Assembly (NCBI GenBank): GCA_943787745.1
Contig: CALSNJ010000002.1
Span: 62,001 to 126,000, forward strand
Source: an uncultured Alphaproteobacteria bacterium
GTDB taxonomy: Bacteria; Pseudomonadota; Alphaproteobacteria; UBA6615
Length of the DNA: 64,000 nt
Reading direction: 5' to 3'
Shown here one piece after another: positions 453 to 32,691 of this stretch (positions are counted from its first letter, which is position 1; every line of letters begins with the position of its first letter). Both the position numbers and the translations under genes were made by a program. Below the pieces are notes generated by a model. That model saw only the letters and a program-made list of their open reading frames with translations. It was not told the DNA's origin and ran no database searches.

Positions 453-866
453 CGTCATGCCCGCACTTGTTGCGGACATCCACGTGTTCGACCATGCATG
501 ATGAAAACAGGAGACGCACGCAGCCCGAATGTCTGGCAGCTGGGTGTACATCATGACGAATAAGCCCAACGGCACGCTGTATGTCGGCGTGACGTCCGAT
601 ATTGCCCGTCGAGCATGGGAGCATCGTGAGAGCGTTGTCGAAGGGTTCACCAGGAAGTACGGCTTGAAACGACTGGTTTATGTCGAATCACATGACGATA
701 TTACTGCGGCCATCCAGCGGGAAAAGACCATTAAGCATTGGCCGCGTGCGTGGCGCGTAAATCTCATCCTCGAACGGAACCCGGATTGGAACGACCTCTA
801 CGACACGCTGATATAGAGGCGTGTCGCCAATACGACGTGGATGGCCGGAACAAGTCCGGCCATGAC
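453..866. repeat. Palindromic repeat element carrying a GIY-YIG gene (R1)
   Basis: The left arm at 453-486 begins CGTCATGCCCGCACTTGTTG and runs into CATCCACGTG. The right arm at about 817-866 contains GGCGTGTC, then ACGTGGATGGCCGG, and ends CCGGCCATGAC. The arms match the two ends of the 100-bp elements at 30835-30934 and 32571-32670 in the same order and orientation. Here the middle is expanded by about 310 bp that encode the GIY-YIG protein. The arms are imperfect inverted copies of each other, and each is itself a short palindrome. Confidence 0.75.
529..816 (+). CDS. Small GIY-YIG family nuclease
   Basis: A 95-residue single-domain GIY-YIG endonuclease. The signature is visible as WVYIMTNKPNGTLYVGVTSD (VYI ... 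YVG, the GIY and YIG equivalents). It is followed by ARRAWEH with the conserved Arg, then VEGFTRKYGLKRLVY and the late Glu in QREKTIKHWPR. There is no partner domain. No good Shine-Dalgarno sequence sits close to ATG 529; an AGGAG lies about 15 nt upstream. A later start would remove the GIY motif. The TAG stop is followed directly by the right arm of a palindromic repeat, and the left arm ends about 40 nt before the start. The substrate is unknown; involvement in movement of the repeat is inference only. Confidence 0.85.
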   Translation: MSGSWVYIMTNKPNGTLYVGVTSDIARRAWEHRESVVEGFTRKYGLKRLVYVESHDDITAAIQREKTIKHWPRAWRVNLILERNPDWNDLYDTLI

Positions 867-30834: not shown

Positions 30835-30934
30835 CGTCATGCCCGGACTTGATCCGGGCATCCACGTCGAGCGACCCCACAAACGTCAGGCGTGTCACAA
30901 CCACGTGGATGGCCGGATCAAGTCCGGCCATGAC
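30835..30934. repeat. 100-bp paired palindromic repeat (R2)
   Basis: The left arm CGTCATGCCCGGACTTGATC and the right arm ending CCGGCCATGAC are inverted to each other around about 40 bp containing AGGCGTGTCACAACC. It is an 'empty' counterpart of the 453-866 element. It lies between the AdoMetDC-like gene and gatB, with no gene of its own. Confidence 0.85.
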
Positions 30935-30992: not shown

Positions 30993-32541
30993 ATGACCGA
31001 CACGACAGACACCACGGCTGACGCCATCCCCGACCATCTGGTTGCGCATTTTACCTCGCGCATCGGCCACAACAGCGCCGACCTCATCGAGGGCGAGACC
31101 GGGTCCTGGGAGATCGTCATTGGCATGGAGGTGCATGCGCAGGTGACCTCGGAGTCCAAACTGTTTTCTGGCGCCCCCACGGACTTTGGCGGCGAGCCCA
31201 ACACCCATGTTAGCCTTGTCGATGCGGCGATGCCCGGCATGCTGCCGGTCCTCAATGAGGCGGCGATCCGACAGGCCGTGCGCACCGGGCTGGGCCTCGA
31301 AGCCCAGATCAATCTGCGTTCGGTGTTTGACCGGAAGAACTATTTCTATCCCGATTTGCCCCAGGGCTATCAGATCAGCCAGTTCTCCGATCCCATCGTG
31401 GGCGAGGGCCGGATCACGGTCGATCTGGAAGACGGTGAAAGCTTCGAAGTCGGGGTCGTGCGCATCCATCTCGAGCAGGATGCGGGCAAATCCGTTCATG
31501 ATCGTATTCCCGATCAAACCTGCATTGACCTGAACCGCTCTGGTGTGGCGCTGATGGAAATCGTTTCCAAACCGGATTTGCGTTCGGGTGTGGAGGCGGC
31601 GGCCTATCTGTCGAAATTGCGCTCTATCCTACGTTATCTGGGCACCTGTGATGGCAACATGCAGGAAGGCTCCATGCGCGCCGACGTGAACGTCTCCGTG
31701 CGTCGCCCGGGCGAAGATCTTGGCACGCGCTGCGAGATCAAGAATGTGAACTCGATCCGCTTTGTGCGGCAGGCCGTCGACTACGAAGCGCGCCGTCAGG
31801 TTGAAATCCTCGAAGAGGGTGGCGAGATCGATCAGGAGACGCGTCTTTTTGATCCGGATCGTGGCGAGACCCGGTCCATGCGCTCCAAGGAAGAGGCCCA
31901 CGACTACCGCTATTTCCCCGACCCCGACCTGCTGCCGGTGGTCATCGACCAAGCTTATGTGGACGAGATCGCCGCCAGCCTGCCCGAACTGCCCGACAAA
32001 AAGGCCGCGCGTTTCGTCGCTGAGTTTGGCCTGAGCGAATACGATGCGGGCGTGCTCGTCGCCGAACGGGAAACCGCCGAGTTCTATGAAGCGGTGGTGG
32101 ATGCCGGCGGTGCCAAACGCGACCCGAAGATCGCCGCGAACTGGATCACCGGTGATTTCTTCCGTCGCCTGAACGCCGACGATCTGGAGATTACCGCCAG
32201 CCCGGTCAGCGCTGCGCAGCTTGGCGGTCTGATCGATCTGATCGCCGACGGTACCATTTCCGGCAAGATCGCCAAGGACGTCTTCGACGAGATGTGGGAC
32301 AGCGGCAATGACGCCGATGCGAATCGTCGAGGAAAAGGGCCTCAAGCAGATCAGCGACAGCGGTGAAATTTCCGCCGTCATCGACCAGATCATCGCCGAC
32401 AACCCCGAACAGGCTGATCAGTACCGCAGCGGCAACACCAAGGTCGTGGGCTGGTTTACGGGACAGGCCATGAAGGCGACGCAGGGCAAGGCGAACCCGC
32501 AGATGGTCAACCAACTCCTCCAGGAAAAACTGGGTAGCTAG
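30993..32541 (+). CDS. gatB: Asp/Glu-tRNA amidotransferase subunit B, frameshifted near the 3' end
   Basis: The kinase-like amidotransferase subunit. [13 protein letters not shown] is a short N-terminal extension, then [20 protein letters not shown], the [19 protein letters not shown] block, and the YqeY-type tail domain. The reading frame from 30993 runs to 32366 and ends with unrelated residues after [14 protein letters not shown]. The expected continuation [14 protein letters not shown]...QLLQEKLGS is in the +1 frame and ends at 32541. Removing one A near 32322-32323 restores a 515-residue protein. TAGGAAAA precedes the start. GatB should be essential here, so a sequencing error is the simplest explanation. 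Confidence 0.93.
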
Positions 32542-32570: not shown

Positions 32571-32670
32571 CGTCATGCCCGGACTTGATCCGGGCATCCA
32601 CGTCCATCGACCCGCTCGACATCCGGCGTGACCCGGCCACGTGGATGGCCGGATCAAGTCCGGGCATGAC
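32571..32670. repeat. 100-bp paired palindromic repeat (R3)
   Basis: Same structure and exactly the same length as the element at 30835-30934. The arms are CGTCATGCCCGGACTTGATC and the inverse ending CCGGGCATGAC. It lies between gatB and the AEC transporter. Translated in one frame it gives the familiar MPGLDPGIH peptide, which is not a real protein. Confidence 0.85.
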
Positions 32671-32691
32671 GATTATAGACTGGGCCGACCT

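Follow-up and report, generated by a model that had tools for sequence, protein, structure and literature searches.

The survey of Di Nocera et al. (2013; PMC3733652) described a REP superfamily whose members carry a terminal CGTC tag, or TGTC/CCTC, followed by an 8-9 bp stem in which A-T pairs come first, a loop of 4-5 nt and a CCA tail, and whose repeats are paired. These CGTC REPs are known from five phyla, mostly from Alphaproteobacteria, and the dRS3 repeats of Neisseria were equated with CGTC-1. The superfamily was said to "apparently lack a dedicated transposase"; no tyrosine transposase gene was flanked by CGTC units in the CGTC-positive species surveyed, and what mobilises these repeats was left open. 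Here we describe a GIY-YIG nuclease gene lying between two facing CGTC REPs in an uncultured alphaproteobacterium, within a 64,000-nucleotide stretch of contig CALSNJ010000002.1 that we refer to as the window. Our favoured reading, to which we assign a probability of roughly 0.6, is that this element of about 400 bp is a minimal autonomous CGTC REP pair mobilised by its own GIY-YIG enzyme, although mobilisation, recognition, cutting and copying are all inferred.

The window element consists of an inverted pair of hairpin arms with an intact GIY-YIG gene between them, and spans 453-867 when both tags are counted (CGTC at 453-456 and GACG at 864-867; Table 1). Its 37-nt inverted repeat (449-485 and 835-871) is 86% complementary, and the right arm reads CGTC-ATGGCCGGA-CTTGT-TCCGGCCAT-CCA. 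Because of the one mismatch in its stem, the left arm forms a weaker hairpin than the right (-6.7 versus -11.4 kcal/mol). The GIY-YIG ORF is the only recognised gene between the arms and nearly fills the space; no DDE or other known transposase was found there by inspection of the ORFs and by Pfam. Two nuclease-less arm pairs in the same window, starting at C30835/GTCAT 30836 and C32571/GTCAT 32572, have arms of the same kind and in the same orientation as those of the window element. As single strands, the window arms and the short pairs fold better than their own shuffles (z -2.8 to -11), and a 16-base arm core, with up to three mismatches allowed, has 10 matches in the window compared to a shuffled mean of 2.57, none of 100 shuffles reaching 10, with the caveat that some of these matches are weak single ones. 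The gatB gene that the short pairs flank (window about 31000-32540) has an open frame of 460 aa, compared to 492-522 in the 12 relatives found, and a frameshift or an assembly error near its 3' end is possible.

A first-pass annotation, made from the sequence alone, had proposed a 414-bp element at 453-866 with arms at 453-486 and about 817-866 that match the ends of two 100-bp repeats. The match held, with the arms now refined to 453-484 and 836-867, and the size held to within the last base of the right tag. The complete 95-aa GIY-YIG gene that it saw filling the middle was confirmed, while the motif that it described beside the right arm in both 100-bp repeats held only in part, since it is present as GGCGTGTC in 30835-30934 and replaced by GGCGTGAC in 32571-32671. 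Its nuclease-less relatives of 100 bp were likewise confirmed, but the genome also contains shorter pairs (72-73 and 84-86 bp, in addition to those of 99-100 bp).

Table 1. Features of the window element and of its nuclease-less relatives in the window.
Feature	Start	End	Strand	Basis
Left arm, CGTC-tagged hairpin (tag CGTC, stem, loop CTTGT, tail CCA; one stem mismatch)	453	484	+	sequence, folding
GIY-YIG nuclease gene, 95 aa, stop TAG at 814-816	529	816	+	ORF, Pfam, AlphaFold2
GGCGTGTC subterminal motif, common to the window element and the short repeat 30835-30934	818	825	+	sequence
Right arm, CGTC-tagged hairpin, inverted	836	867	-	sequence, folding
Nuclease-less arm pair (short relative), upstream of gatB	30835	30934		sequence
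Nuclease-less arm pair (short relative), downstream of gatB	32571	32671		sequence

The window arms belong to the CGTC-tagged REP superfamily, as their tag, stem, loop, tail and copy number all fit. The right arm meets the stem, loop and tail criterion and the left arm does so save for its one mismatch, while in 22 hand-picked arms of relatives 93.8% of the stem cells are paired. High copy number is met as well, since 56 single arms with at most one mismatch occur genome-wide, compared to none for the pattern read backwards. The superfamily is said to consist mostly of head-to-head dimers; facing inverted pairs are common here, and may or may not correspond to that arrangement in the convention of the paper.

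The 95-aa protein matches the Pfam GIY-YIG family (PF01541) over residues 5-77 (E 1.9e-14, 54 bits). Y18, R28, H32 and E65 are invariant in 68 homologous proteins, and Y7 and N84 are kept in at least 90% of them; all six residues have catalytic roles in GIY-YIG enzymes. The AlphaFold2 model is compact (mean pLDDT 93) and predicts that the protein leaves no room for a further DNA-binding domain. The closest solved relative by sequence is the UPF0213 protein 1zg2 (E 2.5e-10), which is also among the nearest solved folds (E 2.7e-4), as is Slx1, a branched-DNA nuclease whose fold the window protein resembles (E 0.017, TM 0.60 on the query). The chemistry of GIY-YIG enzymes is hydrolytic, and none is known to carry out strand transfer. 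The dN/dS ratio of the nuclease was 0.03-0.20 where it could be computed, with synonymous change near saturation, and from these values the gene is likely to be under purifying selection. In-frame stops were present in several nuclease copies among the relatives, and six loci with such stops (L036, L057, L058, L066, L079 and L083) were excluded from the protein sets.

The pairing of nuclease and arms is general across many bacteria and not unique to the window. Nuclease matches were present in 31 of 60 genomes, mostly of relatives, and 65 of the 68 relatives' loci could be scored for an inverted pair, 35 lying above the highest of 680 controls and 30 not. We also assembled a set of 80 named loci, mostly from Alphaproteobacteria, which is biased to close relatives because the best 80 of 584 confirmed candidates were taken (L131, L132, L134 and L155 are common to this set and those of the relatives). 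An inverted-pair score of at least 14 was reached by 53 of the 80 loci, compared to 7 of 1600 within-locus controls. Of the nuclease genes, 36 of 80 had facing arms on both sides, against 1 of 966 other ORFs (Fisher 3e-43) and 1 of 225 when only small other ORFs (up to 150 aa) were counted. Arm density was 6.34/kb within 150 bp of the gene and 0.13-0.22/kb beyond 300 bp, a difference of about 40-fold; the closest arm on the left was forward in 51 of 58 cases, and the closest on the right was reversed in 44 of 61. All 42 adjacent facing arm pairs that lie 150-700 bp apart in the 80 loci enclose a GIY-YIG gene: 38 surround the gene as called, three surround that gene although its called ORF overruns an arm, and the last contains a second GIY-YIG gene, which is intact. 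Since the loci were chosen for the gene, this result holds for nuclease-gene neighbourhoods and not for whole genomes.

The first-pass annotation had asked whether such genes lie between arms more often than chance, and these counts answer that they do. It had also stated that its reading would be refuted if homologues mostly lacked flanking arms, or if the arms lay at random distances from the gene. Neither was found: one or more arms lie within 160 bp of the gene at 73 of the 80 named loci, and the median gap between gene and arm is 29 nt before the gene and 15 nt after it.

The association is not complete, in that our finder did not detect strictly facing arms on both sides at 44 of the 80 genes, and the pair score was not passed at 27 of 80, 25 of 60 and 30 of 65 loci in the three sets. 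The second of these sets comprises a further 60 loci of the class, mostly the best-scoring matches from the 241-genome search described below that were not in the earlier sets; 35 of them score at least 14, without controls because their flanks were too short. Seven of the 80 named loci are outside Proteobacteria by title and only one of these, from Patescibacteria (L189), scores at least 14; the arm model does place arms beside some of the others, such as L171, which has them on both sides. From a viral collection, 40 of 48 loci (L211-L250) were scored, and 32 of the 38 with long enough flanks carry the gene and arms, the phage status of these contigs being unestablished. Because each arm is itself palindromic, flanking arms in direct orientation also score at least 14 in 30 of the 80 loci, and arm orientation was therefore judged from the tag. 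A separate, more distant GIY-YIG group (L064 and L095-L098), found just downstream of a gene that looks slyX-like from its sequence, has no inverted arms by score; its pair scores of 6 to 8 resemble those of controls, making it a natural negative control.

Arm sequence follows nuclease lineage. Within a locus the left and right arms match with a mean score of 21.7, compared to 10.1 when the flanks are re-paired, and the highest of 1000 permutation means was 12.2. A locus's own right flank was among the top 5% of partners of its left flank in 45 of 80 cases and the single best in only 27, because many loci share arm types. Protein distance was correlated with arm distance across 137 loci (Mantel rho 0.26, reached by none of 500 permutations), and loop type required 10 changes on the protein tree compared to a shuffled mean of 30.3, with none of 500 shuffles doing as well (108 labelled rows of 175; the repeat records L131, L132, L134 and L155 were left out). 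Many forks of this tree are unresolved owing to the few alignment columns. Host phylogeny partly confounds the distance correlation and the loop-type test, as well as the genome census presented below, and is a weaker confounder in a test made within genomes that carry several nucleases. Here, the arms of a locus were closer to those of its nearest relative elsewhere than to those of its own paralogue in 18 of 25 loci, less close in 6 and tied in 1 (12 genomes; Wilcoxon 0.006, sign test 0.02). Duplicates were removed from this test, namely L132, which is the same gene as L038, and L155 as the partner of L268, which is on the same contig.

These data bear on the possibility that small genes and REPs simply pile up by chance or hitch-hiking in shared intergenic hot spots. 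In its favour, repeats of several unrelated types are found in the aspS and gatB flanks of different species, and 149 of the 966 other ORFs from the 80 loci also have an arm within 160 bp on at least one side. Against it stand the excess of facing arms and of high pair scores at nuclease genes and the congruence of arms and proteins. Chance or a hot spot as a full account is ruled out by the within-locus controls, the re-paired flanks, the other ORFs and the arm density, and we regard this explanation as all but excluded.

In a complementary census, the same 241 Alphaproteobacteria (at least 90% complete) were searched for both genes and arms. A strong nuclease match (E <= 1e-25) was present in 72 of them, and five or more arms were found in 53 of these 72 genomes, compared to 22 of the 169 without the gene. 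The arm counts are lower bounds, since at most 30 candidates per genome were scored under stricter filters. Exceptions occurred in both directions: an R1 arm was not found in 13 of the 72 gene-bearing genomes, and a strong gene match was not found in 18 genomes with at least 10 arms. The repeats might outlive the enzyme, or the arms in these genomes might differ from our model. A single genome (G136) contained 11 nuclease matches.

The co-occurrence seen in the census could also be read as that of a host enzyme, which would remove or resolve REP cruciforms to the benefit of the host and be kept by its substrate, while the REPs spread by other means. The Slx1-like fold, the purifying selection and the genome-level co-occurrence are in line with this view. 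However, the gene is patchily present (72 of 241), several copies carry in-frame stops, and one genome has 11 matches; a housekeeping gene would not be expected between its own arms at different sites, and the GIY-YIG genes downstream of the slyX-like gene have no inverted arms. A host role as the whole explanation thus appears very improbable.

A further alternative is that a RAYT or another transposase mobilises the REPs, with the GIY-YIG gene as a mere passenger. GTAG REPs are presumed to be mobilised by RAYTs (PMC3733652), and among 14 arm-bearing genomes chosen for the search, three had a match to PF01797 (RAYT-type). The other 11, including the window's own genome, had no PF01797 match, and six of these 11 are listed as at least 99% complete; this search, together with the lack of CGTC-flanked tyrosine transposase genes in the 2013 survey, leaves RAYT mobilisation with very little support.

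Single sites show empty, nuclease-less and nuclease-bearing states among relatives, although movement itself was not observed. At the aspS upstream site, the element is full in the window's own genome (G000) and full with one TAG in G001; in G003 it is internally deleted with both arms kept, and in G004 only the left part is present. Other repeats occupy this site in G002 and G005, and it is empty in G021 and G022. In G009, G015, G019 and G023 (L109, L106, L108 and L105), it holds an unrelated inverted pair of the GGGCGGGTTTGAAACCCGCCCCTAC type without a GIY-YIG gene. The gatB 5' site (window 30835-30934) is empty in G001 and G002, and in G004, G013 and G023 it is occupied by a GIY-YIG gene from a more distant group (type C) that brings repeats of its own. 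At the gatB 3' site (window 32571-32671), the short pair is found in G000 and G001, a full nuclease-bearing element in G005, and a type-C nuclease gene with its repeats in G023, and the site is empty in G002 and G004. A third site carries a full element beside a further arm in G003 and a single arm in G000.

Similar differences were observed outside this group. In Azospirillum lipoferum 4B, sufB and sufC are separated by 617 bp that contain the gene and two arm pairs, whereas the gap in A. ramasamyi, A. oryzae, A. sp. B510 and A. thermophilum is 55-129 bp, with no gene and no such arms, that of A. sp. B510 containing a different palindrome. Empty-site orthologs in relatives, which the first-pass annotation had proposed to look for, were thus found at the aspS, gatB and sufBC sites. 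We also sought a target-site duplication at these sites, and none was readable because the intergenic flanks of filled and empty sites are too diverged. Rhizobium bangladeshense 1002 (L201, 2098-5086) carries two 395-bp nuclease-bearing pairs and three 122-123-bp nuclease-less pairs within 3 kb, whose arms differ by 0-3 mismatches and in which the short and long pairs share arm-adjacent sequence. A further repeat in this array, at 428-bp spacing, starts with an arm (4108, 4536 and 4964). Simple deletion was considered as the source of all short elements and rejected; it was seen once, in G003, and is not general because the short interiors in L201 were not found by eye in the long elements.

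The main rival to our reading is homing, in which a selfish nuclease would cut existing nuclease-less REP pairs that match its specificity and be copied into them by break repair without creating or moving any REPs. Homing is a classical role of GIY-YIG nucleases, each of the 42 long facing pairs in the 80 loci contains a GIY-YIG gene, and the gatB 3' site holds a short pair or a full element in different species; arm-matched specificity would also yield congruence of arms and proteins. On the other hand, full elements are also found where relatives are empty, and not only where relatives have short pairs; short and long elements have their ends in common, but removing the gene from a long element would not yield the interior of a short one; and the direction seen at the aspS site is that of an internal deletion. 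In addition, the compact 95-aa model has no room for a further DNA-binding domain. We consider homing unlikely.

Other GIY-YIG genes are found beside other palindromes. With the window protein as query, three such genes were identified in the window's genome, each beside a different palindrome. The second gene (L004, G000:C5:237570-237836; 48% identical) lies between GTCATTGCGAGG...GCAATCCAG palindromes and is followed by GCGTGTC, as in the window element, while the third (L005, G000:C2:726869-727093) is a distant GIY-YIG gene that another palindrome follows. The type-C group, whose loci include L005, L060, L085, L088, L091 and L092, is tied in most cases to the palindrome CTGAGC-TTGTCGA. Counted by an ad hoc pattern, the density of this repeat core was 5.31/kb within 150 bp of the gene and 0.03-0.16 beyond, and among 22 type-C genes the core was present on both sides of 9, on either side of 15 and on neither side of 7. 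Several type-C ORFs have their last codons and stop inside the repeat (..STGSG, ..STSSG). In Neisseria gonorrhoeae (L332, NZ_CP119142.1), a 48% homologue lies among GTCATTCCCGC...GCGGGAATCC palindromes, which we infer to be dRS3 from the equation of dRS3 with CGTC-1 in PMC3733652; this record is listed as a plasmid but, at 2.17 Mb, looks like a misfiled chromosome. In plasmid p1 of Planktothrix agardhii (L337), a GIY-YIG gene whose neighbours on either side are annotated as MmeI-type and DISARM is surrounded by GTCATTCTGAGTGAAACGAAGAATCTC repeats, possibly another palindrome family.

A bolder reading would be that there exists a class of autonomous elements of about 0.4 kb in which palindromic repeats are spread by one hydrolytic GIY-YIG nuclease about 95 residues long, several lineages each driving their own family and together accounting for many of the abundant short palindromes of bacteria. 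One such family would be the CGTC REPs (including the dRS3 type of Neisseria), another the GTCATTGCGAGG...GCAATCCAG palindromes, and a third the CTGAGC-TTGTCGA type, in which the nuclease gene takes its end from the arm. We judge this broader proposal as likely to fail as to hold.

Our data show that nuclease genes of this kind are enclosed by facing arms much more frequently than other genes, that arm sequence goes with nuclease lineage, and that the window's genome contains dispersed nuclease-less pairs with ends of the same kind. Taken together, the gene-arm pairing, the match of arms to lineage, the genome census, the absence of PF01797 and the states of single sites lead us to propose a REPtron-like element with a GIY-YIG enzyme in place of a RAYT, mobilisation by that enzyme being inferred. 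In this model, the nuclease would recognise its own arm type as a single-strand hairpin or a cruciform and would nick or cut at or near the CGTC-tagged base. Once freed or broken, the element would be copied or moved by host repair or replication to new sites, most of them intergenic, and nuclease-less pairs with matching arms may be carried in trans. No cutting or movement has been observed. The GIY-YIG enzyme is the best candidate found for the missing dedicated enzyme of the CGTC REPs. The first-pass annotation had drawn the parallel with REPs and RAYTs, which held, and had suggested an autonomous element whose nuclease-less relatives have spread, which is supported by the common arms, the subterminal sequence shared in the Rhizobium array and the presence and absence at the same sites; its proposal that the nuclease mobilises the repeat remains, as it was marked there, an inference.

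CGTC REPs and REPtrons were already known, and a REPtron-like element with a GIY-YIG enzyme is new as far as the searched literature goes. A link of bacterial GIY-YIG genes to REPs was not found in a partial search of the open-licence literature, and "GIY" is absent from the main texts of PMC12306157 and PMC6006769. The pairing provides a named, testable candidate mobiliser for CGTC REPs. If the proposal is true, it would account for the inverted pairing of CGTC repeats and place a GIY-YIG enzyme among the known means of repeat spread in bacteria, and if mobility is shown, the element would represent a new class and, in size, rank among the smallest autonomous mobile elements.

In comparison with known systems, the CGTC REP superfamily has the same tag, stem, loop, tail, pairing and mainly alphaproteobacterial hosts as the window arms, but the relevant parts of PMC3733652 name no dedicated enzyme for it, whereas here a GIY-YIG gene lies between the arms. 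The I-TevI-type homing endonucleases share the catalytic domain, with only a weak fold match to I-TevI (1mk0, E 2.1); unlike GIY-YIG homing endonucleases, the window nuclease has no separate DNA-binding domain or linker and is not in an intron. Furthermore, a homing endonuclease has one cognate allelic site, whereas the window nuclease lineage is hairpin-bounded and found at different sites in G000, G003 and G005. The small UPF0213 proteins 1zg2 and 1ywl, which are the closest solved relatives in sequence and among the closest folds, are 26% and 21% identical to the window protein by fold alignment. MITEs are short non-autonomous inverted-repeat elements with a longer coding relative, and bacterial MITEs likewise share this arrangement of short form and coding relative, but the product of the coding relative here is a hydrolytic nuclease, and both ends form hairpins of their own. 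The nearest parallel in organisation is the RAYT/REPtron, in which, as in the window element, inverted REPs flank a gene and are also found scattered without that gene. In RAYTs too, the repeat type matches the enzyme lineage. The difference lies in the enzyme and the tag: RAYTs combine an HUH/Y1 (IS200/IS605-like) enzyme with a GTAG tag, whereas the window element combines a GIY-YIG nuclease with a CGTC tag in a genome without a PF01797 match.
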